Origin: Dichotomocladium elegans
Lineage: Eukaryota > Mucoromycota > Mucoromycetes > Mucorales > Lichtheimiaceae
DNA length: 64,000 nucleotides
NCBI GenBank assembly: GCA_025716815.1
Contig: JAIXMN010000013.1
Span: forward strand, 992,001-1,056,000
Direction: 5' to 3'
Notes under the pieces: model-generated
Told to the model about the DNA's origin: nothing
The model's input: the letters and a program-made list of their open reading frames with translations, nothing else
The model's database searches: none
Translations under genes and position numbers: made by a program
Shown: piece after piece, positions 28,343 through 57,612 of the stretch
How the letters are laid out: each line of letters starts with the position of its first letter
Position numbering within the stretch: the stretch's first letter is position 1

Positions 28343-28346
28343 TTTT

Positions 28347-28355
28347 TATCTTTGA
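28347..28355 (+). promoter_or_regulatory. candidate self-priming primer-binding site
   Basis: TATCTTTGA, five bases after the 5' LTR, is the exact reverse complement of TCAAAGATA at 28289-28297 in the LTR, about 40 bp downstream of the TATA box. No tRNA-type TGG primer site is present. The arrangement recalls the self-primed Tf1/sushi group, in which the 5' end of the mRNA anneals to the primer site. Confidence 0.4.
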
Positions 28356-28385
28356 AAACTTTTGTTTTTCCTACCTGATCCCACC

Positions 28386-33227: not shown

Positions 33228-33255
33228 GCGTTATGTTCAACCTGGAAGGGGGTAA

Positions 33256-36974: not shown

Positions 36975-37190
36975 ACTGCACGCCATTGACTTTGAATGCT
37001 GTTTTGTGCTGGTGCTCTTTCGCTATGGGAAATCGGTGGAAAGCATTGGTCAGATCTAATCTCGTAAACACTGTTGATCCGGCCGTGCGCTCAAGGATGT
37101 CGGACAAGTGGGGTAATGGGAACCGATCCTCGGGGAGCAGTAAGTTGAGCTGACGCACATCCAGGCAAGGGCGATATTTTGTATAGTTGC
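36975..37190 (-). pseudogene. RT N-terminal fragment
   Basis: Minus strand: RQLNLLLPEDRFPLPHLSDI, VFTRLDLTNAFHRFP, KVNGVQY. Cut on the right by the LTR beginning at 37191. Confidence 0.7.
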
Positions 37191-40449: not shown

Positions 40450-41153
40450 TGCGCAAAAAACAAGGACTGGAGATACGATTTGCCGTCTTCCTGTTTTGTT
40501 GAAAAACGGACGTCATAGCCATCATTCTCCAGAGCGCGAATAAGCTTGAACATAAGATCGCCTGGATCGTTGCTAAACCGTTTCTGGCGAAGGTTGGCAA
40601 TGTCCTTTGCCTTCACTAGCGATCCTTGCTCTGTCAAGAGGGTTGCGATTGCACCATCCTTGAATCCAGATTCAACCATCTGGATAACAAGGTGCTCAGT
40701 CTTGTTGTCAAATCGACGGTGGATTGGGTAGGTCGTGACGTCTAAGGCAGGCCGATGGTTGTGTCTATTAGTGATTGACACAACCCTCCACTCAAGGCTG
40801 TCCTTGCGCAATGGTCGTAACATAAGCTGAAAAGGACACCCATTATGCTGGGAGTGCTTTTTATTATGCTTCTTTACTTCAGTGGATGAAACGGAATTGC
40901 CTTGACTGTCCACTATTATTGCGGTTGGACCAGGCACCGCTTCAGGAAGCTCATCTTGATTCCTGGGTACCCCGTGATGCTTGCATGAGATACGCCGATA
41001 CTTCTTGCTACCTTTGTAACTGCTCTTGCAAGTGTAAAGAGCGTAGCCTTGCTTTTTCGCCCATGCTTGGCAGGCCGCATAAGCAGCTTCATGGCCGGTC
41101 CAGGTACGATCCAGATCCGTGGGAATGCTACCAGAGTTTTTCACATCTGACAT
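40450..41153 (-). pseudogene. MULE transposase, N-terminal part
   Basis: About 234 codons are open: MSDVKNSGSIPTDLDRTWTG, AYAACQAWAKKQGYALYTCK, YRRISCKHHGVPRNQ, NGCPFQLMLRPLRK and WRVVSITNRHNHRPAL. This is the FAR1-like WRKY/GCM zinc-binding DNA-recognition part that precedes the DDE domain in MULE transposases. The catalytic part is missing because the frame runs into the mariner. Confidence 0.65.
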
Positions 41154-41780
41154 GATTGATGAGATTGAGTTCTAGTAATGAGAGTATGAGGGAAAAGCGT
41201 GTATTATTTCCTGGGCGCAAAACTTTATTTCTTTTCCGACTATCTGACAACGAGTCTTGAAATGTGAATTATGTTGCTTGGCGAGATGTCGATTATCCTC
41301 TTCATCAGCACATTATTGCCCTGAAATGAGTACGAAAGGCTTAAGAGGATAAAGCACAAACAATGTATTGCATCATTACATAAAGAAAACTCTGTGTTTG
41401 TAGATTTCTTCCATAAAAGCCATTTCATTCGGTAAAGTTTAAATGACCCTTCCCGATTGTGCATAAAGCTCACTTCAGACTTCAGCACCGAGTTTTCCTT
41501 GTCTAGCTGAATCATACACCAAATATGCTCAGCATCTGGCAGAAGGATCCACCTAATTTACCATCATTGCTGCGATCTGTAAGGTGCAACACCTAATGCC
41601 ATGAGATTAAACACAAGTCAATCTTCCTTGTGCGATTGTAATTAGGATAGAGTTTGAGTTGGGGTGGTGCGCGCCGGGCGAGGTTTGCATGAGGGGTGGT
41701 GTAAGAGCGTGGTGTGGGGTGGGCCGCCGGCTGGGTTTGAAACAGGGGTGGTGTAAATGGGGTGGTGCAAATAGCAAAAC
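40450..41780 (-). mobile_element. MULE transposon, right copy, cut by the mariner
   Basis: Inverted partner of 24736-25886, with the CACC-rich terminus at 41780. The transposase frame starts at 41153. It is truncated at 40450 where the mariner target site begins. Confidence 0.65.
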
Positions 41781-42172: not shown

Positions 42173-42438
42173 TGTGGCGTGTTATACTCCCAGAGATCCT
42201 AACCGTAGAAGAAGAAGGGTAACGGATAGATGATGTTTATTGCATGGCACTACTAGGATATTTATACTGGTTTTGCTATCTAATAATAATCATGGAGAAG
42301 TGGGATAAAAGGGAAATAGAAGTGGGCTGTGCGTCTGATGCGAGGACTACTGTCATTCGTGCACTTGTCGAAGAGGACTATGAAAAGCGATAAAAATAGA
42401 GAGCACCGTTGATTGGTCAAGCAATCTGTGCTACGACA
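42173..42438 (-). repeat. diverged LTR related to the 291 bp LTR family
   Basis: Ends GTGCTACGACA like the neighbour at 42449-42739 and shares the TATA block (GGATATTTATACT) and the ATCTAATAATAAT stretch, but the left end differs (TGTGGCGTG). It lies ten bases from the neighbouring LTR. Confidence 0.6.
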
Positions 42439-42448
42439 CGCCAAAAAG

Positions 42449-42739
42449 TGTCGTGCTTGTATTTTGGCGGTTACACCGTGGCCAATAGCAACGACGCAAG
42501 AGTAACAGTGGGGAGAATAAGAGTCGCAGATAGATAGATGCTCTTTATTGTATAGGGACTACTTGGATATTTATACTATTTTGATATCTAATAATAATAT
42601 ATGGAGACAAGAGAGAAAAGGCATTCGGCGATGCGTCCAAAGAGGGAATTACGACCGGCTGTGCTTTCACTGGGGAAGAAGACAGAAAAGGATAAAATAA
42701 TGAATGACGTTGATTGGTCGAGCAATATGTGCTACGACA
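42449..42739 (-). repeat. LTR A, 291 bp
   Basis: TGTCG...CGACA ends. On the sense strand it starts TGTCGTAGCACATATTGC, carries AGTATAAATATCC and ACAATAAAGAGC, and is preceded by the purine tract GAGGAGGGGATAT: a normal 3' LTR with plus-strand primer. Confidence 0.85.
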
Positions 42740-42776
42740 ATATCCCCTCCTCAGAATGTTGGTCGTCCTTGAACAA

Positions 42777-44198
42777 CTATGACAATTGTGCGCGGGCTTC
42801 GGCTGCGGCTTCAAGGTGGCGACGCTCTGCGGCGCGAGCAGCAGTTGGGTCATACCATGGGTCGGTGGGTTCTTCACAAAAGTTTTCCTCATAAGCCTTT
42901 GCCACTTCCAAGTATGAGAAGAATCTATCGGTTAGAATCTTCCTCTCTTTTGTAGTGAAAAGTCTTTGTTTCATTTTGAACGACTGAATGTCAATGAACT
43001 CACTCCTCATATACTCCTTCGTCAGTTCAAAATGACGGTTAAACTCTTGACTGTCCTTCTCAAAAATAGTTCTTTCTCTTGGTGAAAAGATAGTAGAAAT
43101 AGTCAAAGAATCCGTTTGCTTTTGAATAGCATTGGCTTTGTTGTACTCGTCGTAATACAAATTCAACGAAGCCAAATACACAATAGATTCACGATTATCT
43201 CTGAAAAACCTTTTTCCGTCGAAACAGACGTAAACATCCTCACACCCCAAAGGAGTGGCGACCGGTTTCAAGATCTTATATCTTTCGAAATGGGCGGAAA
43301 ACACGGTCAATATGTCCCTGGTGACCTGATGGAACATAGAAGGAACTCGAACCAACAATTTTCCACCCTCTTCGAGGGTTTCAAATGAGTGAAACATCTG
43401 TTTGAAAAGAAAATAGTTATGTTGCAACTCTTCGGTAATATCTATCTTTCCTACCGTCGAATAATCACAGAACACAAAGTCATAGGCAAGACGTTTAGAT
43501 TCATCGCGTAGAAACGCGGAAAAGTCTCGAAACATGTTGTGATCTGAGCGACAGTTTCTGTACACGTCGTCCCAACACTTTCCTTTGACTATGTATTCAG
43601 CATATTCAATGCGAGGAGCACCTTCAGAAAACCAATGTCTAAGATAGTTGGGATCACTACCTATATACACAGCTTTCTTAAAATAATCACCGGACTTTCC
43701 TCTACAAAGATCGAACTCGTGATCCAGTTCTCTCAAGAGCAGTTCGGAATTGGGATAGAAACATTCGACAGATGGTACAATCAAAGGATGATACGAAACG
43801 CTCATAACCTTTTTGTCCCATGAGTCCAAGTTTCTATGATAGCGTCTAATACGCCAGTATTCGTTCGTTGGATTCCTATAAGCATTCTCAGTAGGTTCCT
43901 CAAACTTCATATGACTTCCACGCACATACATTTTTTGGAAATCATTGAGACGAATGATATTGGTGTCGTGCACGTCATTCCAATGCACCTTCGTACGATC
44001 ACTCTGCGTACGAAACATGGCCAAAAATCCGGCGTCGGATCCTAGCCATAGACTTTTTGTGAGTTCCCAATCGATGGGATCTCCAGTCCGATCAGCCTCC
44101 TCTTGCATCATCTCGAACATTGACTTCATCTGAGGTGACAGTGTGTTGCGTCTTGCACAACCACTATCGGGTGAACCTATGGTTCTGAAAAAAGGCAT
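42777..44198 (-). CDS. FtsJ/cap 2'-O-methyltransferase-like protein, copy 1
   Basis: 473 aa, same protein as 46790-48211. A central Rossmann-like domain is visible: VYIGSDPNYL (residues 177-186) as SAM-binding loop, AYDFVFCDYSTVG with Asp245, a helix-loop EEGGKLLVRVPS with Arg284 in the place where the catalytic Lys of the K-D-K-E tetrad is expected, and KPVATPLGCEDVYVCF with Glu320. The layout recalls cap-1 2'-O-methyltransferases of large DNA viruses more than cellular rRNA FtsJ. The last 30 residues (EEPTDPWYDPTAARA) match the C-terminal tail of the gypsy Pol at 54054-57221, so the reading frame is a fusion. The stop lies about 30 bases from the purine tract and LTR. Function is inferred only. 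Confidence 0.65.
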   Translation of the reverse strand: MPFFRTIGSPDSGCARRNTLSPQMKSMFEMMQEEADRTGDPIDWELTKSLWLGSDAGFLAMFRTQSDRTKVHWNDVHDTNIIRLNDFQKMYVRGSHMKFEEPTENAYRNPTNEYWRIRRYHRNLDSWDKKVMSVSYHPLIVPSVECFYPNSELLLRELDHEFDLCRGKSGDYFKKAVYIGSDPNYLRHWFSEGAPRIEYAEYIVKGKCWDDVYRNCRSDHNMFRDFSAFLRDESKRLAYDFVFCDYSTVGKIDITEELQHNYFLFKQMFHSFETLEEGGKLLVRVPSMFHQVTRDILTVFSAHFERYKILKPVATPLGCEDVYVCFDGKRFFRDNRESIVYLASLNLYYDEYNKANAIQKQTDSLTISTIFSPRERTIFEKDSQEFNRHFELTKEYMRSEFIDIQSFKMKQRLFTTKERKILTDRFFSYLEVAKAYEENFCEEPTDPWYDPTAARAAERRHLEAAAEARAQLS

Positions 44199-44476
44199 TT
44201 TGTATTCAAAGGCTAAAGAACGAGTCTTTAAGTAAAAGGCAGGTAAGTAACAGGCAGGGTTTTAACTAGGCAAAAAAGTACTGGGCTAAACAATTGTCTT
44301 CTCAAAATAGAATTGAAAAGACAAGGAAAATATTTCCTTTCACACACAAGTGTGACACGTTATAAAGATAGCTAGATCAAAATATATATTTCATAATTTG
44401 ACAATCTTAAGGAAAACCGAGTTAACGATAAAAAACCTTAAAATTCTCAATTAAATTTTAAAAAAAAAAAAATCCA

Positions 44477-44785
44477 TTATTTGAAAAAGAAATTTGGGTT
44501 GCATAAATTTGTCCACAACTTCTTCATCATCAAATCGTCCAATGCGTCATGTTTACATAGCATCACGTAATGAATGTCTCTTACCATTTCTTGAACGAGC
44601 GGACTGAGATTTTTGTATAGATTCAGAAATTTTTCATACCCAAACACAACCATTTTCAAACGAGCGTCAACCGCGACTTTCTTCACCTCATCCAAGTCCA
44701 ACACGTATTCGTATGCATTAGTCACCAATCCTGGAATAGTATATTGCATCAAATTCCGGATCAGATCCAGTTTATCCCTACACAT
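44477..44785 (-). CDS. unknown 102 aa protein, copy 1
   Basis: Same as 46203-46511. Starts MCRDKLDLIRNLMQYTIPGL and is rich in Leu, Val and charged residues (DLDEVKKVAVDARLKMVVFG), predicted helical. It has no family I recognise. The frame is open upstream of the ATG by at least 14 codons (HPRKATPTEFE). It ends NPNFFFK just before a run of thirteen T. Confidence 0.5.
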   Translation of the reverse strand: MCRDKLDLIRNLMQYTIPGLVTNAYEYVLDLDEVKKVAVDARLKMVVFGYEKFLNLYKNLSPLVQEMVRDIHYVMLCKHDALDDLMMKKLWTNLCNPNFFFK

Positions 44786-45555
44786 TTCAAATTCAGTCGG
44801 AGTTGCCTTTCTGGGGTGTTTGACTTTAAAAATAAAAATAATTTTAAGGTCAGGCCTGTGCCCAAGAGCAATTCATGTTTTCTAAAATAAAACCACACGT
44901 CACAAGCATTTGCAAATTTTGCAAAATATTAAGTCACGATATCTAAAAAATATTATCAAAACAATAAGCCACATTCAAAAAAATCTACAAGAGGGACAAG
45001 CAAGCAAAAAACTCTTAAACTGCTAGACCTAGTAATCACAAACTCTATCTTTAGAAACCTATCCTTACTAGATCGTGTATATTAAAGCGCAAATACAGGA
45101 TTTTCAAGAAGAAGTTTGCCACAAATTTTAGTTGTTCATATAGACCATCTAGGTTTTTCGTTTTTTTTTGCTTCAAGTTCGAATACAATTTTTAGTATTT
45201 CGTTGCTACCCTTTTGTCAAATTTAAAGGCAATAGTAGCAAGAACATTTCAATCAAGGCTATAGGTGAGTCTTCCTTCTCTTCTTTTTACACCAGAATAA
45301 TTTTGGGAGGCCAAACATTTGTGTTTCATTCTAATTTCAAAGGAAGAAGAGAAACGAAATACTAAAACTTGTATTTGGATTTGAAGCAAAAAAGTTCTTC
45401 TTGAAAATCCTGTATTGTTTACTGAAAATTTTTTGGGTGGCTTTAACTGTGTTTTAAAGCTGACTGTATTTGAAATTATTTTTTAAAAGTCAAACACCCC
45501 AGAAAGGCAACTCCGACTGAATTTGAAATGTGTAGGGATAAACTACCTTTCAACC
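44758..45555. repeat. 798 bp direct duplication, left copy (spacer with MITE)
   Basis: Same sequence and orientation as 49677-50474. It covers the start of the 102 aa ORF, a 317 bp MITE and the stretch just after the N7-methyltransferase-like ORF. Ends are sharp junctions with the inverted middle unit. Confidence 0.8.
45096..45412. repeat. 317 bp MITE, copy 1
   Basis: Starts CAGGATTTTCAAGAAGAA and ends with its reverse complement TTCTTCTTGAAAATCCTG, flanked by TA on both sides: a Tc1/mariner-type MITE inside the element's spacer. No transposase. A small open frame in it is considered chance. Confidence 0.7.
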
Positions 45556-45575
45556 AAAATTTTCAGTAAACAATA

Positions 45576-45892
45576 CAGGATTTTCAAGAAGAACTTTTTT
45601 GCTTCAAATCCAAATACAAGTTTTAGTATTTCGTTTCTCTTCTTCCTTTGAAATTAGAATGAAACACAAATGTTTGGCCTCCCAAAATTATTCTGGTGTA
45701 AAAAGAAGAGAAGGAAGACTCACCTATAGCCTTGATTGAAATGTTCTTGCTACTATTGCCTTTAAATTTGACAAAAGGGTAGCAACGAAATACTAAAAAT
45801 TGTATTCGAACTTGAAGCAAAAAAAAACGAAAAACCTAGATGGTCTATATGAACAACTAAAATTTGTGGCAAACTTCTTCTTGAAAATCCTG
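45576..45892. repeat. 317 bp MITE, copy 2 (inverted)
   Basis: Mirror of 45096-45412 in the inverted unit, with the same terminal repeats and TA flanks. Confidence 0.7.
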
Positions 45893-46202
45893 TATTTGTG
45901 CTTTAATATACACGATCTAGTAAGGATAGGTTTCTAAAGATAGAGTTTGTGATTACTAGGTCTAGCAGTTTAAGAGTTTTTTGCTTGCTTGTCCCTCTTG
46001 TAGATTTTTTTGAATGTGGCTTATTGTTTTGATAATATTTTTTAGATATCGTGACTTAATATTTTGCAAAATTTGCAAATGCTTGTGACGTGTGGTTTTA
46101 TTTTAGAAAACATGAATTGCTCTTGGGCACAGGCCTGACCTTAAAATTATTTTTATTTTTAAAGTCAAACACCCCAGAAAGGCAACTCCGACTGAATTTG
46201 AA

Positions 46203-46511
46203 ATGTGTAGGGATAAACTGGATCTGATCCGGAATTTGATGCAATATACTATTCCAGGATTGGTGACTAATGCATACGAATACGTGTTGGACTTGGATGA
46301 GGTGAAGAAAGTCGCGGTTGACGCTCGTTTGAAAATGGTTGTGTTTGGGTATGAAAAATTTCTGAATCTATACAAAAATCTCAGTCCGCTCGTTCAAGAA
46401 ATGGTAAGAGACATTCATTACGTGATGCTATGTAAACATGACGCATTGGACGATTTGATGATGAAGAAGTTGTGGACAAATTTATGCAACCCAAATTTCT
46501 TTTTCAAATAA
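46203..46511 (+). CDS. unknown 102 aa protein, copy 2
   Basis: Same protein as 44477-44785, in the inverted unit. The first 40 bases and the 5' flank (46160-46217) are present in reverse complement just after the N7-methyltransferase-like ORF (49554-49617), so the monomer's spacer has about 60 bp inverted repeats at its two edges. Open frame is preserved but without a recognised motif. Confidence 0.5.
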   Translation: MCRDKLDLIRNLMQYTIPGLVTNAYEYVLDLDEVKKVAVDARLKMVVFGYEKFLNLYKNLSPLVQEMVRDIHYVMLCKHDALDDLMMKKLWTNLCNPNFFFK

Positions 46512-46530
46512 TGGATTTTTTTTTTTTTAA
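46512..46530 (+). terminator. T-run directly after the 102 aa ORF
   Basis: A run of about thirteen T starts five bases past the stop codon, also present in the mirror copy (44458-44476). Poly-T of this kind acts as a transcript end signal in some large cytoplasmic DNA viruses; here that role is only a suggestion, and it may be simple AT-rich sequence. Confidence 0.25.
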
Positions 46531-46789
46531 AATTTAATTGAGAATTTTAAGGTTTTTTATCGTTAACTCGGTTTTCCTTAAGATTGTCAAATTATGAAAT
46601 ATATATTTTGATCTAGCTATCTTTATAACGTGTCACACTTGTGTGTGAAAGGAAATATTTTCCTTGTCTTTTCAATTCTATTTTGAGAAGACAATTGTTT
46701 AGCCCAGTACTTTTTTGCCTAGTTAAAACCCTGCCTGTTACTTACCTGCCTTTTACTTAAAGACTCGTTCTTTAGCCTTTGAATACAAA

Positions 46790-48211
46790 ATGCCTTTTTT
46801 CAGAACCATAGGTTCACCCGATAGTGGTTGTGCAAGACGCAACACACTGTCACCTCAGATGAAGTCAATGTTCGAGATGATGCAAGAGGAGGCTGATCGG
46901 ACTGGAGATCCCATCGATTGGGAACTCACAAAAAGTCTATGGCTAGGATCCGACGCCGGATTTTTGGCCATGTTTCGTACGCAGAGTGATCGTACGAAGG
47001 TGCATTGGAATGACGTGCACGACACCAATATCATTCGTCTCAATGATTTCCAAAAAATGTATGTGCGTGGAAGTCATATGAAGTTTGAGGAACCTACTGA
47101 GAATGCTTATAGGAATCCAACGAACGAATACTGGCGTATTAGACGCTATCATAGAAACTTGGACTCATGGGACAAAAAGGTTATGAGCGTTTCGTATCAT
47201 CCTTTGATTGTACCATCTGTCGAATGTTTCTATCCCAATTCCGAACTGCTCTTGAGAGAACTGGATCACGAGTTCGATCTTTGTAGAGGAAAGTCCGGTG
47301 ATTATTTTAAGAAAGCTGTGTATATAGGTAGTGATCCCAACTATCTTAGACATTGGTTTTCTGAAGGTGCTCCTCGCATTGAATATGCTGAATACATAGT
47401 CAAAGGAAAGTGTTGGGACGACGTGTACAGAAACTGTCGCTCAGATCACAACATGTTTCGAGACTTTTCCGCGTTTCTACGCGATGAATCTAAACGTCTT
47501 GCCTATGACTTTGTGTTCTGTGATTATTCGACGGTAGGAAAGATAGATATTACCGAAGAGTTGCAACATAACTATTTTCTTTTCAAACAGATGTTTCACT
47601 CATTTGAAACCCTCGAAGAGGGTGGAAAATTGTTGGTTCGAGTTCCTTCTATGTTCCATCAGGTCACCAGGGACATATTGACCGTGTTTTCCGCCCATTT
47701 CGAAAGATATAAGATCTTGAAACCGGTCGCCACTCCTTTGGGGTGTGAGGATGTTTACGTCTGTTTCGACGGAAAAAGGTTTTTCAGAGATAATCGTGAA
47801 TCTATTGTGTATTTGGCTTCGTTGAATTTGTATTACGACGAGTACAACAAAGCCAATGCTATTCAAAAGCAAACGGATTCTTTGACTATTTCTACTATCT
47901 TTTCACCAAGAGAAAGAACTATTTTTGAGAAGGACAGTCAAGAGTTTAACCGTCATTTTGAACTGACGAAGGAGTATATGAGGAGTGAGTTCATTGACAT
48001 TCAGTCGTTCAAAATGAAACAAAGACTTTTCACTACAAAAGAGAGGAAGATTCTAACCGATAGATTCTTCTCATACTTGGAAGTGGCAAAGGCTTATGAG
48101 GAAAACTTTTGTGAAGAACCCACCGACCCATGGTATGACCCAACTGCTGCTCGCGCCGCAGAGCGTCGCCACCTTGAAGCCGCAGCCGAAGCCCGCGCAC
48201 AATTGTCATAG
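46790..48211 (+). CDS. FtsJ/cap 2'-O-methyltransferase-like protein, copy 2
   Basis: Same 473 aa protein as 42777-44198, in the inverted unit and reading into LTR B. The nucleotide arms differ just past the stop: 48218 (G) and 48224 (A) correspond to differing bases at 42770 and 42764, so the two arms are not perfectly the same. The start MPFFRTIGSPDSGCARR follows an AT-rich leader. See copy 1 for motifs: residues 177-186, Asp245, Arg284 and Glu320. Confidence 0.65.
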   Translation: MPFFRTIGSPDSGCARRNTLSPQMKSMFEMMQEEADRTGDPIDWELTKSLWLGSDAGFLAMFRTQSDRTKVHWNDVHDTNIIRLNDFQKMYVRGSHMKFEEPTENAYRNPTNEYWRIRRYHRNLDSWDKKVMSVSYHPLIVPSVECFYPNSELLLRELDHEFDLCRGKSGDYFKKAVYIGSDPNYLRHWFSEGAPRIEYAEYIVKGKCWDDVYRNCRSDHNMFRDFSAFLRDESKRLAYDFVFCDYSTVGKIDITEELQHNYFLFKQMFHSFETLEEGGKLLVRVPSMFHQVTRDILTVFSAHFERYKILKPVATPLGCEDVYVCFDGKRFFRDNRESIVYLASLNLYYDEYNKANAIQKQTDSLTISTIFSPRERTIFEKDSQEFNRHFELTKEYMRSEFIDIQSFKMKQRLFTTKERKILTDRFFSYLEVAKAYEENFCEEPTDPWYDPTAARAAERRHLEAAAEARAQLS

Positions 48212-48248
48212 TTGTTCGAGGACAACCAACATTCTGAGGAGGGGATAT

Positions 48249-48539
48249 TGTCGTAGCACATATTGCTCGACCAATCAACGTCATTCATTATTTTATCCTT
48301 TTCTGTCTTCTTCCCCAGTGAAAGCACAGCCGGTCGTAATTCCCTCTTTGGACGCATCGCCGAATGCCTTTTCTCTCTTGTCTCCATATATTATTATTAG
48401 ATATCAAAATAGTATAAATATCCAAGTAGTCCCTATACAATAAAGAGCATCTATCTATCTGCGACTCTTATTCTCCCCACTGTTACTCTTGCGTCGTTGC
48501 TATTGGCCACGGTGTAACCGCCAAAATACAAGCACGACA
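48249..48539 (+). repeat. LTR B, 291 bp, shared between two half-units
   Basis: Has a 3'-LTR context on its left (purine tract GAGGAGGGGATAT) and a 5'-LTR context on its right (primer site at 48542), as in a one-LTR circle or a head-to-tail tandem. Confidence 0.85.
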
Positions 48540-48541
48540 AT

Positions 48542-48554
48542 TGGTAGCTGATGA
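48542..48554 (+). promoter_or_regulatory. primer-binding site candidate (TGGTAGCTGATGA)
   Basis: Two bases past LTR B, also mirrored beyond LTR C at about 51466-51478. The same 13 bases follow the 5' LTR of the gypsy at 52394. TGGTAGC fits the 3' end (GCTACCA) of an initiator-Met-type tRNA; full matching to a host tRNA is unchecked. Confidence 0.55.
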
Positions 48555-48850
48555 ACTTCGATTCCCCGATGGACGACCAAGAACCGTACAATAACTACTG
48601 TCGCAATTGTGGAGGCTACGGTCACGATGAAGATATCTGTACTTCCGAGATCCCAGATCGTTGTTACAACTGTGGAGGACATGGTCACGATGAAGATATC
48701 TGTACTCCCAAGATCCCAGATCGTTGTTACAACTGTGGAGGACATGGTCACGATGAATATGCCTGCACTTCCGAAAGAATGTCACAATGTTATAACTGTG
48801 GTAATGAATACCATTTTGCCCGGAATTGCATGTTGCCGACTCTTATATAG
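48551..48850 (+). CDS. four-CCHC zinc-knuckle protein (Gag-like), copy 1
   Basis: 99 aa. Four CX2CX4HX4C knuckles in tandem (CRNCGGYGHDEDIC, CYNCGGHGHDEDIC, CYNCGGHGHDEYAC, CYNCGNEYHFARNC) follow a short acidic N-terminus MNFDSPMDDQEPYNN. Nucleic-acid binding is expected, as for retroviral nucleocapsid or CNBP-type proteins. It starts within the primer site and occupies the gag position. Its end overlaps the next ORF by 25 bases in the -1 frame, the same relation as gag to the protease frame in the gypsy at 51898. It could thus be extended by frameshifting into the methyltransferase-like protein. Confidence 0.7.
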   Translation: MNFDSPMDDQEPYNNYCRNCGGYGHDEDICTSEIPDRCYNCGGHGHDEDICTPKIPDRCYNCGGHGHDEYACTSERMSQCYNCGNEYHFARNCMLPTLI

Positions 48851-49551
48851 TGTCTGAAAATGAGGTTGTTGTCGTGGAAGAACACGACGCTGATTTCAGA
48901 GTACAACAGTCTGATTTCGAAAAGACCGCTCACGAGATCTTGGACATACTTGTTAACTCTAAAATCTTGATGCCAGACTTCCCCAGGAAGGAATTATTGA
49001 CGAACCATGGGTTTTTCAAGGATTTATTAGCGATGGCCAATAAAACAGCATACGCTAAAGGTAATAAGGATCCGAAAGTGGAAGAATTCATGGAAATGTC
49101 TGTTTACAACAACAATTGTAAAAGATTCCTTATCGAGTATGCGAAAAATCTAACCACTGTTATAGACCTAGCGTGTGGTAAAGGTGTCGACATACAAAAG
49201 TATTCTGGTGGGTCGTCGAATGTCACTTCATACATAGGGATGGACATATGTCAACAACAACTTCAGGATTTCAAGGATAGGGATCCTCAAGTTAGATTTC
49301 CGTATGAATTATACAAAGGTGATTTTACTCAACCGAAGATTCTACCAGGATTGCAGGGTAGAACTTGTATAGCCACGTATAATGTGTTTTCGCTACTGTG
49401 TACCTCGAAATTGGCTTTTAACACTTGGTTGCGCTACAACTTCAGATTCAAAGATATTGTCTTGTTGGGGTCGTGCTTGTCGAAATCTGTGTTAAAGAAT
49501 GAGGAGTACATAAAACGGTTTTCGTGTAAATTCAATGGGAATTTGGGTTGA
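48826..49551 (+). CDS. mRNA cap guanine-N7 methyltransferase-like protein, copy 1
   Basis: 241 aa if started at the ATG at 48826; a -1 frameshift product with the CCHC protein is an alternative. SAM-dependent fold: the segment YNNNCKRFLIEYAKN followed by VIDLACGKGVDIQKY (residues 112-126) is the N-x-x-K plus DLxCGKGxD arrangement seen in cap guanine-N7 methyltransferases, then TSYIGMDICQQQLQDF as the acidic ribose-binding strand, FPYELYKGDFT and CIATYNVFSLLCTS. The C-terminal part ends FNGNLG and is shorter than in full enzymes, so it may be truncated. The protein is AT-rich in codon use. I infer a viral or plasmid-like origin. Confidence 0.65.
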   Translation: MHVADSYIVSENEVVVVEEHDADFRVQQSDFEKTAHEILDILVNSKILMPDFPRKELLTNHGFFKDLLAMANKTAYAKGNKDPKVEEFMEMSVYNNNCKRFLIEYAKNLTTVIDLACGKGVDIQKYSGGSSNVTSYIGMDICQQQLQDFKDRDPQVRFPYELYKGDFTQPKILPGLQGRTCIATYNVFSLLCTSKLAFNTWLRYNFRFKDIVLLGSCLSKSVLKNEEYIKRFSCKFNGNLG

Positions 49552-49676
49552 AAGGTAGTTTATCCCTACACATTTCAAATTCAGTCGGAGTTGCCTTTCT
49601 GGGGTGTTTGACTTTTAAAAAATAATTTCAAATACAGTCAGCTTTAAAACACAGTTAAAGCCACCCAAAAAATTTT

Positions 49677-50474
49677 GGATCAGATCCAGTTTATCCCTAC
49701 ACATTTCAAATTCAGTCGGAGTTGCCTTTCTGGGGTGTTTGACTTTAAAAATAAAAATAATTTTAAGGTCAGGCCTGTGCCCAAGAGCAATTCATGTTTT
49801 CTAAAATAAAACCACACGTCACAAGCATTTGCAAATTTTGCAAAATATTAAGTCACGATATCTAAAAAATATTATCAAAACAATAAGCCACATTCAAAAA
49901 AATCTACAAGAGGGACAAGCAAGCAAAAAACTCTTAAACTGCTAGACCTAGTAATCACAAACTCTATCTTTAGAAACCTATCCTTACTAGATCGTGTATA
50001 TTAAAGCGCAAATACAGGATTTTCAAGAAGAAGTTTGCCACAAATTTTAGTTGTTCATATAGACCATCTAGGTTTTTCGTTTTTTTTTGCTTCAAGTTCG
50101 AATACAATTTTTAGTATTTCGTTGCTACCCTTTTGTCAAATTTAAAGGCAATAGTAGCAAGAACATTTCAATCAAGGCTATAGGTGAGTCTTCCTTCTCT
50201 TCTTTTTACACCAGAATAATTTTGGGAGGCCAAACATTTGTGTTTCATTCTAATTTCAAAGGAAGAAGAGAAACGAAATACTAAAACTTGTATTTGGATT
50301 TGAAGCAAAAAAGTTCTTCTTGAAAATCCTGTATTGTTTACTGAAAATTTTTTGGGTGGCTTTAACTGTGTTTTAAAGCTGACTGTATTTGAAATTATTT
50401 TTTAAAAGTCAAACACCCCAGAAAGGCAACTCCGACTGAATTTGAAATGTGTAGGGATAAACTACCTTTCAACC
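49677..50474. repeat. 798 bp direct duplication, right copy (spacer with MITE)
   Basis: Equals 44758-45555. Left edge: AATTTT joined to GGATCAGATCC. It contains the third MITE copy. Confidence 0.8.
50015..50331. repeat. 317 bp MITE, copy 3
   Basis: Same orientation as 45096-45412, with CAGGATTTTCAAGAAGAA termini and TA flanks. Confidence 0.7.
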
Positions 50475-51194
50475 CAAATTCCCATTGAATTTACACGAAA
50501 ACCGTTTTATGTACTCCTCATTCTTTAACACAGATTTCGACAAGCACGACCCCAACAAGACAATATCTTTGAATCTGAAGTTGTAGCGCAACCAAGTGTT
50601 AAAAGCCAATTTCGAGGTACACAGTAGCGAAAACACATTATACGTGGCTATACAAGTTCTACCCTGCAATCCTGGTAGAATCTTCGGTTGAGTAAAATCA
50701 CCTTTGTATAATTCATACGGAAATCTAACTTGAGGATCCCTATCCTTGAAATCCTGAAGTTGTTGTTGACATATGTCCATCCCTATGTATGAAGTGACAT
50801 TCGACGACCCACCAGAATACTTTTGTATGTCGACACCTTTACCACACGCTAGGTCTATAACAGTGGTTAGATTTTTCGCATACTCGATAAGGAATCTTTT
50901 ACAATTGTTGTTGTAAACAGACATTTCCATGAATTCTTCCACTTTCGGATCCTTATTACCTTTAGCGTATGCTGTTTTATTGGCCATCGCTAATAAATCC
51001 TTGAAAAACCCATGGTTCGTCAATAATTCCTTCCTGGGGAAGTCTGGCATCAAGATTTTAGAGTTAACAAGTATGTCCAAGATCTCGTGAGCGGTCTTTT
51101 CGAAATCAGACTGTTGTACTCTGAAATCAGCGTCGTGTTCTTCCACGACAACAACCTCATTTTCAGACACTATATAAGAGTCGGCAACATGCAA
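50469..51194 (-). CDS. mRNA cap guanine-N7 methyltransferase-like protein, copy 2
   Basis: Same 241 aa protein as 48826-49551, in the outer unit next to LTR C. In the outer element it is the second ORF after the 5' LTR. Motifs as in copy 1: DLACGKGVDIQKY at residues 114-126 and YIGMDICQQQL at about 136-146. Confidence 0.65.
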   Translation of the reverse strand: MHVADSYIVSENEVVVVEEHDADFRVQQSDFEKTAHEILDILVNSKILMPDFPRKELLTNHGFFKDLLAMANKTAYAKGNKDPKVEEFMEMSVYNNNCKRFLIEYAKNLTTVIDLACGKGVDIQKYSGGSSNVTSYIGMDICQQQLQDFKDRDPQVRFPYELYKGDFTQPKILPGLQGRTCIATYNVFSLLCTSKLAFNTWLRYNFRFKDIVLLGSCLSKSVLKNEEYIKRFSCKFNGNLG

Positions 51195-51469
51195 TTCCGG
51201 GCAAAATGGTATTCATTACCACAGTTATAACATTGTGACATTCTTTCGGAAGTGCAGGCATATTCATCGTGACCATGTCCTCCACAGTTGTAACAACGAT
51301 CTGGGATCTTGGGAGTACAGATATCTTCATCGTGACCATGTCCTCCACAGTTGTAACAACGATCTGGGATCTCGGAAGTACAGATATCTTCATCGTGACC
51401 GTAGCCTCCACAATTGCGACAGTAGTTATTGTACGGTTCTTGGTCGTCCATCGGGGAATCGAAGTTCAT
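51170..51469 (-). CDS. four-CCHC zinc-knuckle protein (Gag-like), copy 2
   Basis: Same 99 aa protein as 48551-48850. It is the first ORF behind LTR C, the 5' LTR of the composite, and overlaps the methyltransferase-like ORF by 25 bases in the -1 frame. Confidence 0.7.
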   Translation of the reverse strand: MNFDSPMDDQEPYNNYCRNCGGYGHDEDICTSEIPDRCYNCGGHGHDEDICTPKIPDRCYNCGGHGHDEYACTSERMSQCYNCGNEYHFARNCMLPTLI

Positions 51470-51480
51470 CAGCTACCAAT

Positions 51481-51771
51481 TGTCGTGCTTGTATTTTGGC
51501 GGTTACACCGTGGCCAATAGCAACGACGCAAGAGTAACAGTGGGGAGAATAAGAGTCGCAGATAGATAGATGCTCTTTATTGTATAGGGACTACTTGGAT
51601 ATTTATACTATTTTGATATCTAATAATAATATATGGAGACAAGAGAGAAAAGGCATTCGGCGATGCGTCCAAAGAGGGAATTACGACCGGCTGTGCTTTC
51701 ACTGGGGAAGAAGACAGAAAAGGATAAAATAATGAATGACGTTGATTGGTCGAGCAATATGTGCTACGACA
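51481..51771 (-). repeat. LTR C, 291 bp
   Basis: Outer 5' LTR of the composite on the minus strand. It is followed by AAAG, the likely target duplication, and lies 33 bases from the 3' end of the tRNA-Ser gene. Confidence 0.85.
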
Positions 51772-51804
51772 AAAGGACGACAAGGGCAACGACACACAAA
51801 AGGT

Positions 51805-51886
51805 CGACAACAGCAGGACTCGAACCTGCGCGGGCAGAGCCCATGAGATTTCGAGTCTCACGCCTTAACCGCTCGGCCATGTTGTC
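51805..51886 (-). tRNA. tRNA-Ser (anticodon CGA)
   Basis: Read on the minus strand: acceptor GACAACA pairs with TGTTGTC, discriminator G, D-arm TGGCCGAGCGGTTAAGGC, anticodon stem TGAGA/TCTCA with loop CTCGAAA (anticodon CGA, codon UCG), long variable arm TGGGCTCTGCCCG and T-arm GGTTCGAGTCC. 82 nt, type II, no intron. LTR elements flank it on both sides. Confidence 0.92.
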
Positions 51887-51897: not shown

Positions 51898-52391
51898 TGT
51901 CGTGGACGAACGGAGTTTTGGCTCCAGGACTGCCAAATCAAGGCAAAGATTCAAGCCCAGGAATCCCGGTCGACCCAAGCTCTCAATTCGAAGCACGTGA
52001 TCCCAGACATCCCTCTTGTCACGTGCCTTTCGGAAGCTAAAATGCCATGGCGCTTCCTGGCATCTTCTGGAACTTGCTCCACGATCACTTCCCCACCACA
52101 CCAGTCATGTCACGTCGACTCTTCTAGAAAAAGGATGTCTCTAGAATCATCAGTAGCTTTTGCTAGTATCTTCTTTAGACATTAGTATAAATATCAGCTG
52201 TATCCTTTACTACAATAAAGGACAGTCAATCTATCTACTCTTATTCTTATATTCCGCTTCCTCCTGAAATCAAGGCTTCCTCGGCGCATATCCTCTTGTT
52301 TACTGCTAGTTTGAGTACTCTTTGGGCTGGATAAAGATATTATTACAAAAGCGGAAAGAGACAAGACAACTAGGAAACAAGAAAACCGACA
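51898..52391 (+). repeat. gypsy 5' LTR, 494 bp
   Basis: TGTCG...CGACA ends, as in the 291 bp LTRs. TATA-like TAGTATAAATATCAG near 52183 and ACAATAAAGGAC near 52212. Confidence 0.92.
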
Positions 52392-52393
52392 AC

Positions 52394-52406
52394 TGGTAGC
52401 TGATGA
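52394..52406 (+). promoter_or_regulatory. primer-binding site TGGTAGCTGATGA
   Basis: Two bases downstream of the 5' LTR; the same 13 bases as behind the LTRs of the composite element. Confidence 0.6.
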
Positions 52407-52492
52407 TCATTCGTTCCCACTGAATACAAGATCAAGATTGGATACGACTTTATTTTGCTTAACAAGAACTACTACCCGACAACTGACTTACC

Positions 52493-53407
52493 ATGGACAC
52501 CGATAACAGTCTTACCTTCGAGCAACAAGCTCTGATGACGGTAATGCAGTCACTGCAACAACTACTGCAACGACAACAGCAAGTCCCACAGGAAGACGAG
52601 TTCATGCATGGTACTGGACAAGAAGACAATCGGACTCTTTTGCAAGCGCTCCGACCTGTCAAACCTGACACTTTCTCCGGTGAACGTAATTCGCGCAAGG
52701 TCGATGCTTGGTTGTACACTATCGAAAAGTATTGCGAATTGGTGCAAATGCGCCATGATCATCAACGCGTGTTGTTTGCTGTGGCTCTACTTCGAGATGG
52801 TGCTATTACTTGGTGGCGTCAATTAGAGTCCGACACAAATGTGGCGACCCCCCAAACATGGCAACAATTTTGCGATGCATTCCGTACAGAATTCAAGCCC
52901 GAAAATGCCGAACAAATTGCTCGACAAAAGCTTCAAGAGTTACAGCAGCGTGGCTCGGTGTCTTCTTACGTCCGTGCCTTCCGGGATATCATGCTCGAAC
53001 TACCTAATATGGATGTCAAGGATGCTCTGTTTGTTTTCACCAACGGTCTAAAATATCAAGTCAAGCTGCATGTGCTGATCCACAAACCGGATACTCTCCA
53101 CAAGGCGTACGAACTGGCTGAATCATACGAAAGTGCTCAACGAGTGGCCCGCGGTCTACACAATTCTCGTCCTGCTTTTGGTTTTGGCCATCATGGTGCT
53201 ACTCGTAACGCATACACTGCCTCTGAGCCAACACCTATGGAATTGGATGCTCTCTCCCCGGCACAATCAAATCGTTCACGTATTCGCTGTTTCCGTTGCG
53301 GTCGAATGGGTCATTACCGTCGTGAGTGTCGACAACCAAGAAGCAACAACGATGACCAAACACAAGCACAATCATCAAGCCAGGATTTTGGCAACGCACG
53401 TGCGTAA
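52493..53407 (+). CDS. gypsy Gag
   Basis: 304 aa structural protein forming the virus-like particle. It contains the retrotransposon gag core (FSGERNSRKVDAWLYTIEKY, ITWWRQLESDTN, SVSSYVRAFRDIMLELPNMD) and one CCHC knuckle CFRCGRMGHYRREC near residue 265. The C-terminus overlaps the protease frame, which is open from upstream in the -1 frame. Confidence 0.9.
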   Translation: MDTDNSLTFEQQALMTVMQSLQQLLQRQQQVPQEDEFMHGTGQEDNRTLLQALRPVKPDTFSGERNSRKVDAWLYTIEKYCELVQMRHDHQRVLFAVALLRDGAITWWRQLESDTNVATPQTWQQFCDAFRTEFKPENAEQIARQKLQELQQRGSVSSYVRAFRDIMLELPNMDVKDALFVFTNGLKYQVKLHVLIHKPDTLHKAYELAESYESAQRVARGLHNSRPAFGFGHHGATRNAYTASEPTPMELDALSPAQSNRSRIRCFRCGRMGHYRRECRQPRSNNDDQTQAQSSSQDFGNARA

Positions 53408-53517
53408 GCAAGGGGAAACGTACGTGCAGCCATGAACTTCCCCTTAAGAAGAAGCAAAACCAGTCGCTGGAGGATCAGGGGATTGTTCACAAGGGTCCAC
53501 AAGAAAAGGATTCTCCA

Positions 53518-54057
53518 GTGGGGTTGGCCAATGTTATCCACCAAGGCAAGGAAAGTTCTGTAGCGTCTGATACTAATGTTGAGGGCATGCAGGTTACTCC
53601 AAGTGATGGATTGGTGGACGCAGCTGTGGGTGGCCAACGCAGTGATGATGCTGTTCAAAATGCTCACACTGAGGAGAAAGAGCTGCGAGAAGATTGCTGT
53701 CACTTGGAAGAGTTGAACGCTTGCACGGGTGAATCGTTACCATTGTATGGTGGCATGACAAGGAAAAAGCGTATTTTGGCTCTGATCGATACAGGTGCAA
53801 GTGCAAGTTATGTTTCATCAAGGTTTTGCAAGGACTTGGATAAAATTGATATTGTGGCGCGCGATGTTGAAACTGCTGGCGGACACAGACTGAAGATCTC
53901 CAAGAAGGTGGCGTTCCCATTCTCACTATCCGGTTGTGATATGAAGGTCGATGCATATGTGCTAGACACCAAATTTGACGTAATCCTTGGAAGAATTGGC
54001 TGGCAGAATACACACCAAAGGCAGACTGGAAAACTGATGTCTGGAATATCGTCTTGA
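53518..54057 (+). CDS. gypsy aspartic protease region of Pol
   Basis: Retropepsin-type region: [20 protein letters not shown] holds the catalytic [14 protein letters not shown] and [11 protein letters not shown] follow. The frame is open before the ATG at 53518 back to the gag end, so expression by -1 frameshift from gag is likely. It ends at a TGA (54055) because of a one-base change near 54010 (ACACACCAAAGG); in the next frame the protein continues as [19 protein letters not shown] into the RT ORF. So protease and RT were one frame. Confidence 0.85.
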
Positions 54058-57000
54058 ATGGCAAGAAGTACAAGCTGGAACCAGAGCGGTACTTGGGCGA
54101 ATCTGGTGTGCGTTACTTGTTGACCCATCGACAAGTTGGTAAAGCCGTGCGCAAGAACAAAGTCGAAGCCGTATACATGTTACATTTGTTGGAGAATGAA
54201 ATCAAGTCCAAGGATATCCCACCTACCTTACAAGCATTGGTGGATGAATACAGCGACGTTTTTCGTGCCGAATTACCTGGATTGCCACCTGAGAGGGAAC
54301 TGGAACATGTGATCGACACTGGAGATGCAAAACCTATATCAAGACCGCCTTTCAAGATGTCTCCTTTGGAATTAGATGAACTACGCCGCCAATTGGATGA
54401 GTTGTTGAAACTTGGCCTGATCAAGCCTAGTGTATCACCTTGGGGAGCCCCAGTACTCTTTGTCAAGAAGAAAGATGGCAGTATGAGAATGTGCATTGAC
54501 TATCGTGCATTGAACAAGGTGACGATTCGGAATCAACATCCACTACCAAGAATCGATGAGTGCCTTGAACGACTACAAGGTGCCTTGTACTTCACCAGTT
54601 TAGATCTCAAGTCGGGATATCACCAAATTCGGATCAAGGATGAAGATGTCCCTAAAACGGCTTTCAACACCCGCTATGGTCAATTCTCATTTTTGGTACT
54701 GCCTTTCGGATTGTGTAATGCTCCGCCTACCTTTCAAAGCCTGATGAATCGAGTACTCGGTGACTATATCGACCGTTTTGCGCTGGTGTATCTCGACGAC
54801 ATATTGATTTTCAGCAAGTCAGAGGAAGAACATGTCAAGCATGTCAAGATGGTACTGGATCGACTACGGGAAGCCAGGCTGTATGCCAATATGTCAAAGT
54901 GCGAGTTTGGTAAGACGGAAGTTGAGTTCTTGGGATTCCGTGTTTCAGCCAAAGGGATCAAACCGGCAGAGGGAAAGCTTAAAGCTATTCAAGATTGGGA
55001 GCCACCTACCAATGTCCAAGAGGTCCGGCAATTTATTGGACTAGCTCAACATTACCGGCGTTTCATCCCATCTTTTGCGAGCATTGCGACACCCCTTACC
55101 GACTTGACCAAAGGCTCTGGACCCAAGAAGAGACCTATCGTATGGACTGACGGATGCCAAGCAAGTTTCGATCTGATCAAGGAAAAGTTGACCACTGCTC
55201 CTGTGCTGCAAGCTCCCGACCCTAGCAAGCCCTATCGTGTCGAATGTGATGCATCAGATGTCGGCGTTGGTGCTGTATTATTACAGCCCGATGACACTGG
55301 CGTATGGCATCCTCTAGCGTACGAATCCCGCAAGTTGTCCCCTCAAGAAAGAAACTATCCGGCACAAGAACGCGAACTGTTGTCTATATTGCATGCATTA
55401 AGGACGTGGCGATGTTTTCTGGAAGGACGTCAATATGGGATCTATACCGATCATAATTCTCTGAAGTACTTGCGGTCCCAAGCCAAAATCACACCAAGAC
55501 TTGCACGCTGGATGAATGAACTGGAACTCTTCGACCCTGAAATCCTGTACAAGCCTGGGAAGGAAAACGGTGTTCCTGATGCCCTTTCAAGAAAAGCATA
55601 CGATGCCCCACCCAATGATACGTCATTAGAACCCCAATTCCTTTATGCAAGCATGAATGTATTACCGGAATCTCATCGTCAAGACTGGCCATTGTATTAT
55701 GTCTCTCGCCCTGCTGATTTGCCCAAGGAAGTAACTGCTTTCCTGGACCAAGAGCAAGAACACTTCGTGGTGCGTGATGGCAAGGTATATCGCAAGATCA
55801 AGCTGAAGACCGGTGACGGTGATCCTCTTATCAAGGAAGTTCGTTATCTACCATTTGCTCTTCGTGCTGATAAAGTCAAGACATTTCACGATGGATTTGG
55901 ACACGCCGGCAAGACCACTGTATTCGACTTGATGCACCTTCGTTATTGGTGGCCTACTATGCGTGCTGACATCCGCGATTGGTTGTCTACCTGTCCTGCC
56001 TGTCAAATGAATAGTAGACGCGATCGTGCTCATCATGATGTCATGCACCCCTTGGATGTCCCTGCGGCTTTCTCAAGATGGCACCTCGACTTCATTGGCG
56101 AACTGCCGAAGACTGTTCGTGGAAACCGGTGGATCCTAGTTGCTGTGGATTACATGACCAACTATCCAATTGCAAGAGCTGTTCCTGTTGCGTCTGGTAA
56201 AGCTGTAGCTGACTTCTTGTACGAAGAGATTGTGATGCGTTTTGGCTGTCCCAAGGAAATCCTCACTGATCGCGGTGCAAACTTTATGAGCAAAGTGTTA
56301 TCCCATTATACAACGCGCATCGGTACTACCCACAAGTTTACATCGGCTTTTCACCCGAGAACCAATGGCAAGTGCGAACGTCTGAATGGTACTCTGAAGT
56401 CCATGTTGCGCAAGTATGTAAATGGCGCCCTTCATCTTTGGGATGATTACTTGGATGCTGCTTTATTTGCTTGCCGTGTCCGAACACATGCCACTACTGG
56501 ATACAGCCCCTTTTACCTTACCTATGGAAGAGACCCAATACTGCCAGGTGACCCCCTTCGCCCATACATCTCGGAAGAAGCTCTCAAGGACCCTCGAGTT
56601 GTGGCAGAATTGACTGCTCAAGAATTGGAAAAGGTGAACCACGCTCGTGCTGCTGCTACGGCAAGAATGCAGGCTGTTGGACAAAAGGACAAGGAACGAT
56701 GGGACAAGGCGTTAAACATTGTTGACTTTGATGTCGGTGACTATGTCAAGCTTACACACGAAGGCCGCTACGGTTTGGAACCCCAGTACAAAGGACCTTA
56801 CGTTGTTACCGCCAAGAATGAAGACTTTGGAACGTACAAGCTGGAGACCTTACAGGGACAACCACTTGCTTCCTGGGTACATGTTGATCGTTTGGCAAAA
56901 GTGAACTTTGACACGGAGCCGGCAACTCCATGGTTTGACCCTACAACTGCTCGTGCCGAATGGCGTTCCAAGATGGGTCTACCACCTGACAATGACGAAG

Positions 57001-57221
57001 TCGACAAGCTTGTTACTAACACCGTTGACGAAGACCATTTGACTGACCGGTCTGCAAGTTTTGGTCACCACGATTCCGCCATTGTTCAGAGACGAACAAG
57101 TGTTTCGGGAGGGAGTAATGTCGTGGACGAACGGAGTTTTGGCTCCAGGACTGCCAAATCAAGGCAAAGATTCAAGCCCAGGAATCCCGGTCGACCCAAG
57201 CTCTCAATTCGAAGCACGTGA
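54054..57221 (+). CDS. gypsy Pol: reverse transcriptase, RNase H, integrase
   Basis: 1055 aa from the ATG at 54054. [62 protein letters not shown] and [13 protein letters not shown] with the YxDD box. RNase [21 protein letters not shown] and [13 protein letters not shown]. Integrase: zinc finger [11 protein letters not shown]...[31 protein letters not shown] and [14 protein letters not shown], the D-D-E residues all present. The C-terminus [20 protein letters not shown] resembles the end of the FtsJ-like ORFs of the composite element. The frame runs about 100 bases into the 3' LTR before stopping. No chromodomain. Confidence 0.93.
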
Positions 57222-57612
57222 TCCCAGACATCCCTCTTGTCACGTGCCTTTCGGAAGCTAAAATGCCATGGCGCTTCCTGGCATCTTCTGGAACTTGCTC
57301 CACGATCACTTCCCCACCACACCAGTCATGTCACGTCGACTCTTCTAGAAAAAGGATGTCTCTAGAATCATCAGTAGCTTTTGCTAGTATCTTCTTTAGA
57401 CATTAGTATAAATATCAGCTGTATCCTTTACTACAATAAAGGACAGTCAATCTATCTACTCTTATTCTTATATTCCGCTTCCTCCTGAAATCAAGGCTTC
57501 CTCGGCGCATATCCTCTTGTTTACTGCTAGTTTGAGTACTCTTTGGGCTGGATAAAGATATTATTACAAAAGCGGAAAGAGACAAGACAACTAGGAAACA
57601 AGAAAACCGACA
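57119..57612 (+). repeat. gypsy 3' LTR, 494 bp
   Basis: Copy of 51898-52391, preceded by the purine-rich CGGGAGGGAGTAA. Confidence 0.92.

Follow-up and report, generated by a model that had tools for sequence, protein, structure and literature searches.

A foreign, putatively RNA-capping gene between the LTRs of two retrotransposon families of Dichotomocladium elegans, with a possible origin in an RNA virus

RESULTS

A three-LTR element carrying methyltransferase sequence

The window analysed here is a stretch of 64,000 nucleotides from the genome of Dichotomocladium elegans (C28:992001-1056000; 39.4 Mb in 122 contigs), and at 42449-51771 it holds a long terminal repeat (LTR) structure whose interior contains open reading frames (ORFs) resembling two RNA-cap methyltransferases, an FtsJ-like 2'-O enzyme and a guanine-N7 enzyme. 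An initial annotation of this DNA had described two outer 291-bp LTRs, the primer-site-like TGGTAGCTGATGA two bases behind an LTR, the purine tract GAGGAGGGGATAT directly before one and a Gag-like ORF with four CCHC knuckles, all of which we recover, the last as a 99-aa ORF with four stretches matching the Pfam family zf-CCHC (E 3.3e-11); it had missed the middle LTR, which makes three of 291 bp rather than two (Table 1). It was also right that no frame for a reverse transcriptase (RT) or integrase is found among the ORFs of at least 60 aa between the LTRs, with Pfam run on four ORFs. The 291-bp LTR pair, the two priming motifs and AAAG on either flank are those of a non-autonomous Ty3-like element; an autonomous one would have its own protease, RT, RNase H and integrase, which the window element does not.

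The element is arranged as two large palindromes. The arms of the first (42446-45432 and 45556-48542) are 2,987 nt long and differ at 4 positions, of which flank base 42448 is one, and those of the second (48248-49676 and 50344-51772) are 1,429 nt long with 0 mismatches. The minus strand, with primes for parts that run against this reading direction, reads LTR, gag, N7, X, N7', gag', LTR', pol tail', FtsJ', 102', X, 102, FtsJ, pol tail, LTR, where X is a DNA transposon described below and 102 is a 102-aa ORF. The outer LTRs are identical to each other, and the whole is a tandem dimer with three LTRs that was apparently turned into the two palindromes by a later inversion.

The cargo as pieces of one gene

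Proteins like the FtsJ-like and N7-like ones are encoded at three places in the genome, two of them in the window and the third on contig C116. The C116 frame is unbroken and 771 aa long, with the FtsJ-like part first, the N7 part second and the window's 102-aa protein as its C-terminus, and the window pieces are 95.6-96.8% identical to it in DNA. By this comparison the N7, 102-aa and FtsJ ORFs of the window are pieces of one 771-aa gene, and their earlier description as separate cargo genes has to be given up. No further locus of the gene was found in the genome by protein searches, in which 90 of 93 candidates were scored in one (leaving 3 of the 93 unscored) and 4 of 4 in the other. The 473-aa ORF consists of residues 1 to ~446 of the 771-aa protein followed in frame by a retrotransposon pol C-terminus (its last ~25-31 residues); 70 of its 73 matches in the genome are confined to the last ~49 residues, that is, to this pol tail. 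The first residues of the 102-aa ORF derive from X, and its foreign-gene part starts at 46231.

The sole relative found among 5.8 billion proteins is P0003, of 765 aa, which is 33% identical over 93%. The N7 assignment of the initial annotation is borne out by PF03291 (mRNA_G-N7_MeTrfase; cut-off 26.6 bits), which scores 35.9 bits in the window ORF, 30.3 in the C116 protein and 41.2 in P0003, the match covering only profile positions ~26-132 of 315. For the putative FtsJ part, PF01728 (cut-off 24.1 bits) scores 24.9 bits in the C116 protein and 21.3, below the cut-off, in the window ORF; it gives no match in P0003 at E 0.1, though JGI names that protein RlmE/FtsJ. The catalytic residues of FtsJ-like 2'-O-methyltransferases are K-D-K-E. 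In the alignment the D and E are conserved, the third residue is R in the genomic copies and K in P0003, and the first K is unassignable. Sequence profiles match both domains to methyltransferases, as had been predicted; the structural half of that check fared worse, since AlphaFold gave poor models from alignments of four rows and of two (mean predicted local distance difference test score 38 for both). We read the gene as a candidate two-domain capping gene, with a putative FtsJ-like 2'-O and a putative cap N7 methyltransferase on one chain.

A second capture on contig C116

On C116 the gene lies between the gag start and the integrase frame of a different Ty3-like family, of which a gene-free sibling is present on C43. 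The LTRs of the C116 element are 99.87% identical over 794 bp (about one base differs); the final 10 bases of the 3' LTR are displaced by the insertion of a third LTR element, and once that element is skipped the flanks read TTGT and TTGT. The initial annotation had asked whether other copies of the cargo lie between LTRs: the sole other copy found in the genome does, between LTRs of another family. Because the families differ, the junctions differ and the DNA has diverged by 3-4%, the two captures are independent, and it appears from these comparisons that two LTR families each took up the same foreign gene recently. The genome searches gave no additional copy of either chimera. The third LTR element (L055:1432-7261) has identical LTRs of 456 bp, a 1,611-aa gag-pol with chromodomain and a duplicated GTACC.

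Ends and junctions of the captured unit

The unit captured on C116 starts with GGAAATATTTTCC, ends with GTGTGAAA and is 2,596 nt long. Each capture takes in a complete unit of ~2.6 kb that is bounded by the same ends in both cases, and its terminal motifs occur solely in these copies within the genome. The window copy of the unit is circularly permuted: its two ends meet at 46650/46651, the 3' untranslated region (UTR) running straight onto the 5' UTR, and it is opened inside the gene at TGCCGAC, with entry and exit at one site. Such a single site suggests exactly one lap round a circular or end-joined template, and ends common to both captures suggest that the unit also had real linear ends. 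TGCCGAC is common to carrier and unit at the gag-side junction, and ACC is shared at the pol-side junction, with a near-match around CCGAC. On C116 unit and carrier have GGAA in common at the 5' junction; for a circular unit the shared stretch would be AAGGAA. Of 200,000 random junctions, 0.04% share 7 bases or more and 5.3% share 3 or more.

The 139-nt 5' UTR opens with hairpins. Folded with the first GG, as in the window, the 5' end forms two stacked hairpins (z -4.3), and without it, as on C116, one hairpin (z -3.7); in both cases 0 of 200 shuffles were as stable.

Selection before capture

The coding sequences of the window and C116 differ at 82 sites, 66 synonymous and 16 nonsynonymous, giving a dN/dS of 0.054 over 768 codons, with a nonsynonymous count slightly inflated by the three final codons of the first piece, which fall in the junction. 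Differences at codon positions 1, 2 and 3 number 9, 10 and 63, and transitions outnumber transversions 72:10, without a strong C/T direction (window C and C116 T 26 times, the reverse 20). This pattern is impossible for neutral cargo after capture, the LTR pairs being near-identical, so the divergence arose in a working source; going by these codon counts, the gene would have diverged under purifying selection in a living source before both captures.

The carrier family and its integration

The window LTR matches other genomic LTRs at 97-99% (40 of 102 candidates scored), and seven siblings with two LTRs were found, on C69, C29, C34, C43, C56, C79 and C62, the last running off its contig. The LTR pairs of the other six differ by 0-3 bases each. 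The C69 sibling has a single 1,251-aa gag-pol frame with protease, RT, RNase H and integrase and LTRs ~98% like the window's, and intact relatives of this kind could, from their gene content, have supplied enzymes to the chimera. Kept from this family in the window are the LTR, the primer site, the gag knuckles and the last ~31 pol codons; the carrier sequence stops at 48840. Hence the proposal of a captured capping cassette in place of pol stands in that foreign methyltransferase sequence replaces most of pol, and is amended in that the cargo is one two-domain gene in pieces.

Five of the seven siblings are flanked by 4-bp target duplications (C34, C43, C56, C79 and, from an extra LTR start 31 bp upstream, C29); C69, where the 3' LTR end was not located, and C62, where the 3' LTR is off the contig, were not judged. 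A lone LTR on C75 likewise has a 4-bp duplication. A tRNA gene lies 27-52 bp from five of the seven siblings (C69, C56, C29, C34 and C79), its 3' end always facing the element; ARAGORN, run with the bacterial code, gave no tRNA neighbour at C43 or on the readable side of C62, the distances being derived from its output without a random control. The window element inserted 33 bp from the 3' end of a tRNA-Ser(CGA) gene in the same orientation. Since the LTRs, the 4-bp duplication and the tRNA-adjacent insertion recur in siblings, the element is not a chance arrangement, and as its duplication and tRNA spacing match the family's, the chimera probably integrated as an ordinary member of it.

On its other side the tRNA gene also has an LTR element as neighbour: a second Ty3-like element (51898-57418; 304-aa gag, 1,014-aa pol, 300-nt direct repeats 100% identical) begins ~11 bp 5' of it. 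An older LTR fragment, ~70% identical, lies directly beside the chimera's left LTR (window 42246-42438). The C116 element and its C43 sibling sit ~10 bp before tRNA 5' ends, and the chimera's LTR family behind 3' ends.

Transposon X and the palindromes

X is a 798-bp hAT-like element with five further near-full-length copies at 96-100%. It has the 8-bp duplication and inverted repeats near the ends of a non-autonomous hAT-like element, the outermost ~11 bp of its ends differing. Its duplications are GGAATTTG where it entered the gene and AAAATTTT where a second X entered the first; the two parts of the split copy add up to a full one (131+675-8 = 798). Matching 8-bp flanks were seen in two of the five further copies (L070, L072) and not in a third (L073), two being unjudged. 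X is absent from the C116 gene copy. A dimer in which X was nested in one unit and single in the other would, after one crossover between inverted X copies, have the centres of both palindromes.

Table 1. Features of the chimeric element and its flanks, in window coordinates (TSD, target-site duplication)
Feature	Position	Strand	Remarks
TSD AAAG, left copy	42445-42448		4 bp; sibling elements likewise 4 bp
Outer LTR 1	42449-42739	-	291 bp
FtsJ ORF with pol tail, inverted copy	42777-44198	-	
102-aa ORF, inverted copy	44477-44785	-	C-terminal piece of 771-aa gene
Full X copy 1	44758-45555	-	798 bp
X 3' part	45556-46230	+	675 bp; copy split by nested X; starts with TSD AAAATTTT
102-aa ORF	46203-46511	+	
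X TSD GGAATTTG	46231-46238	+	8 bp; partner 49538-49545
Captured unit, C-terminal coding part and 3' UTR	46231-46650	+	ends in hairpin and GTGTGAAA
Captured unit, 5' UTR	46651-46789	+	start GGAAATATTTTCC, fused directly to 3' UTR
473-aa ORF	46790-48211	+	FtsJ-like part and pol C-terminus
Retrotransposon pol C-terminal tail	48119-48211	+	
Polypurine-tract-like GAGGAGGGGATAT	48236-48248	+	abuts LTR
Middle LTR	48249-48539	+	291 bp; common to both dimer units
Primer-binding-site-like TGGTAGCTGATGA	48542-48554	+	two bases past LTR
gag piece	48551-48850	+	four CCHC knuckles, 99 aa
Captured unit, N7-methyltransferase part	48834-49545	+	ORF from ATG 48970, 193 aa; open frame 247 aa
X 5' part	49546-49676	+	131 bp; split copy; ends with TSD AAAATTTT
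Full X copy 2	49677-50474	-	798 bp
N7-methyltransferase ORF, inverted copy	50469-51050	-	
gag CCHC ORF, inverted copy	51170-51469	-	
Outer LTR 2	51481-51771	-	291 bp
TSD AAAG, right copy	51772-51775		
tRNA-Ser(CGA)	51805-51886	-	3' end 33 bp from insertion, orientation as in siblings

Elsewhere in the window lie inverted repeats of ~1.1 kb (24790-25886 and 40629-41725; 96-97% identical, ~15 kb apart) and a further pair (26843-27424 and 36609-37190; 99% identical), a Ty3-like element at 27972-33555 whose 300-nt direct repeats are identical and whose gag-pol frame of 1,613 aa includes a chromodomain, a Transposase_21 (tnp2) gene at 60583-63174 and an Mre11-like gene at 11950-13557.

DISCUSSION

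We propose a model for the origin of the window element and its C116 counterpart, template-switch capture by Ty3-like elements with an RNA virus as the most likely source, that we consider probable when taken as a whole. The RT of an intact sibling, working on its own RNA, would have jumped to a foreign monocistronic RNA of ~2.6 kb, or to a circular cDNA of it, copied exactly one lap of that template and then returned to the element RNA, so that the capping gene replaced everything from the gag zinc knuckles to the last ~31 pol codons. The chimera would then have been inserted by the integrase of the sibling family, with a 4-bp duplication, just behind the tRNA gene. The order of the later events may have been as follows: X inserted into the gene, a tandem dimer of the element then formed, a second X entered the first, and a single crossover between inverted X copies converted the dimer into two palindromes. 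Another LTR family would have taken up the same gene independently on C116, where it is uninterrupted. The source would most likely be a segment of an undescribed RNA virus infecting this organism.

As to that source, we lean towards an RNA-virus segment, and the initial annotation's suggestion of an endogenous viral segment accordingly agrees with the source we find likeliest. P0003 lies on a JGI metagenome contig of 2,642 nt, near the unit length of 2,596 nt, which fits a monocistronic segment. The insert is virus-like by structure, and we do not file it as a non-retroviral endogenous viral element, a class defined by a tie to an identified virus, which was not found for it. Several observations weigh against our model. 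P0003, the sole relative found, comes from a metagenome record. No viral relative was found in two scans of IMG/VR and none in phage and plasmid collections by tblastn; the protein search that gave P0003 reaches only relatives sharing short exact words, and of three protein searches, which gave one relative besides the genome's own ORF, the profile search missed P0003 and so loses distant relatives at its candidate step. RdRP_1, for which a control did respond, was not found in the genome, nor were RdRP_4 and RdRP_2, for which the controls were also silent, so that these two negatives are weak. Shuffled sequences fold as well as the 3' hairpins do (z -0.5 and -1.2), only 3 nt are exactly shared at the pol-side junction of the window element, and the palindromes are read from the assembly. 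The FtsJ part is nearest to EP424R of African swine fever virus (ASFV) and to giant-virus proteins, by profile and by a weak fold match, and the 22 consecutive A at the 3' junction on C116 may represent a poly(A) tail.

These last two observations speak for a different source, the mRNA of a large DNA virus or of a cytoplasmic DNA plasmid with its own capping genes, the capture still proceeding through an LTR-element RT; we hold this for possible, at about one chance in four. A profile built on the two relatives matches EP424R (E 4e-4), a chain labelled GTP--RNA guanylyltransferase (7d8u, E 0.005), which we take to be the ASFV N7 domain, and chain 3dou_A. Foldseek searches with the low-confidence model, which carry little weight, rank EP424R at the top for the PDB and a giant-virus protein at the top for viral models, with RNA-virus proteins lower in the same viral list. 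A hairpin before the 3' end also resembles the mRNA ends of giant viruses. A poly(A)-tailed mRNA was at first favoured for the 22 A, which would suit such a tail, and was set aside as unproven, since the C43 sibling, the sole one found, is A-rich at the same place; in the window, moreover, the 3' UTR meets the 5' UTR without an A run. Also against a DNA-virus mRNA are the 139-nt 5' UTR that begins with hairpins, the contig of the only relative with its about equal total length, and the failure to find Capsid_N in the genome, a weak point as the control was silent too. Furthermore, the sections of a 2023 account drawn on here state that no double-stranded DNA virus infecting fungi was then known (PMC10640383).

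Other explanations concern the structure rather than the source. The palindromes could be an assembly error, an in-silico duplication and inversion of one simple 4.4-kb element, and arms that are 99.9-100% identical would allow for a long-read or polishing artefact. We think this improbable: the outer LTRs terminate exactly at the 4-bp duplication, the first arm pair holds 4 differences, and an error would need two X states, single and nested, each with its 8-bp duplication, where one crossover gives both centres; the capture itself would be unaffected. A circular route, in which an LTR-element fragment entered circular foreign DNA, such as viral cDNA in circular form, and this molecule, now with one LTR, joined the chromosome by recombination with a resident LTR, would explain a permuted gene into which pol tail, LTR and gag are set at one site with the same entry and exit, and circular viral cDNAs are described for insects in the parts of two reports used here (PMC8964962; PMC6338049). 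It would require a solo LTR at that very spot, and a loss of pol in any case, ordinary integration accounts equally for the 4-bp duplication and the tRNA spacing, and the C116 capture is linear, so that we rate it lower still. Finally, the methyltransferases might be kept as a working capping cassette for element RNA or host, the FtsJ ORF being open and in frame with the pol tail and the gene being under purifying selection. We rejected this as highly implausible, because the window gene is broken by the capture junction and X and because the selection predates capture, as the barely differing LTRs indicate. The gag frame ends just past the junction and does not reach the N7 part, the genome searches found neither chimera a second time, the equivalent of the FtsJ lysine is R in the genomic copies and K in P0003 by the motif given above, and no sign of methyltransferases serving the element was found in this analysis.

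Template-switch capture, the reading we prefer, has counterparts to its parts in known systems. EP424R, which is FtsJ-like, and the cellular and viral cap N7 methyltransferases match the two domains by profile; they are separate proteins, whereas here both domains sit on one 771-aa chain, 33% identical to P0003. DNA methyltransferases have reportedly been described in retrotransposons. Viral helicase domains in insect retrotransposons (PMC6338049, in the sections consulted) are, like these, captured enzyme domains, but they are fused to element proteins and retained in many lineages, whereas the captures described here are recent, few and broken. A close likeness is a Bel/Pao LTR element of Bursaphelenchus xylophilus with a nodavirus-like polymerase, for which RT copy-choice was proposed (PMC5177903); according to the portions of that paper drawn upon, it too has non-retroviral viral sequence between its LTRs and has lost some element genes, is present as a single copy with LTRs identical over 132 nt, and had only one earlier natural example known to its authors. 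It differs from our case in that ours involves a capping gene instead of an RNA-dependent RNA polymerase, Ty3-like elements, a complete unit with both ends, and two independent captures in two families, one of them permuted, with no source virus found. A mammalian experiment with a retroelement and a virus is also mentioned in PMC5177903.

In insects, circular DNAs of viral RNA, including a dsRNA-virus segment (PMC8964962), are linked to RT (PMC8964962; PMC6338049), and Poirier 2018, as cited in PMC6338049, reported circles mixing viral and LTR-element sequence, so far as the passages used convey. The silkworm circle spans nt 426-1045 of its segment (PMC8964962, same limit), whereas ours is deduced from a permuted order and belongs to another host. 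Methyltransferase-bearing segments or domains are described in RNA viruses, none shown in the material consulted to match the unit (PMC11351042, PMC12282112, PMC7251205, PMC7761488). Polymycoviruses and hadakavirus, likened here by description, are multisegment fungal RNA viruses with a methyltransferase segment, and HadV1 segments except RNA7 end in CC(A), as given in the part of PMC7251205 used, whereas the captured units end in GTGTGAAA. The literature searched held nothing like the capture of one capping gene by two LTR families, though publication elsewhere is possible.

The entry of non-retroviral sequence into genomes is mostly inferred from decayed remains, and here two captures are seen fresh in one genome. 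As cargo-free siblings, both unit ends, junction homologies and target duplications are all readable, the template-switch route is directly testable. The exact ends of a replicon, most likely viral, are now at hand and, if it is an RNA segment, it would start with GGAAAUAUUUUCC and end with GUGUGAAA. We put forward tentatively, as a less likely extension of the model, that LTR-element RT in this organism makes full-length linear and circular cDNAs from segments of an undescribed multisegment RNA virus, whose capping enzyme would unite the 2'-O and N7 methyltransferases on one chain, and that these were repeatedly cargo of LTR elements until very recently. The permuted window unit is a hint of a circular cDNA of this replicon in a non-insect host and, if that is true, the genome records a fungal counterpart of the viral circular DNA of insects.

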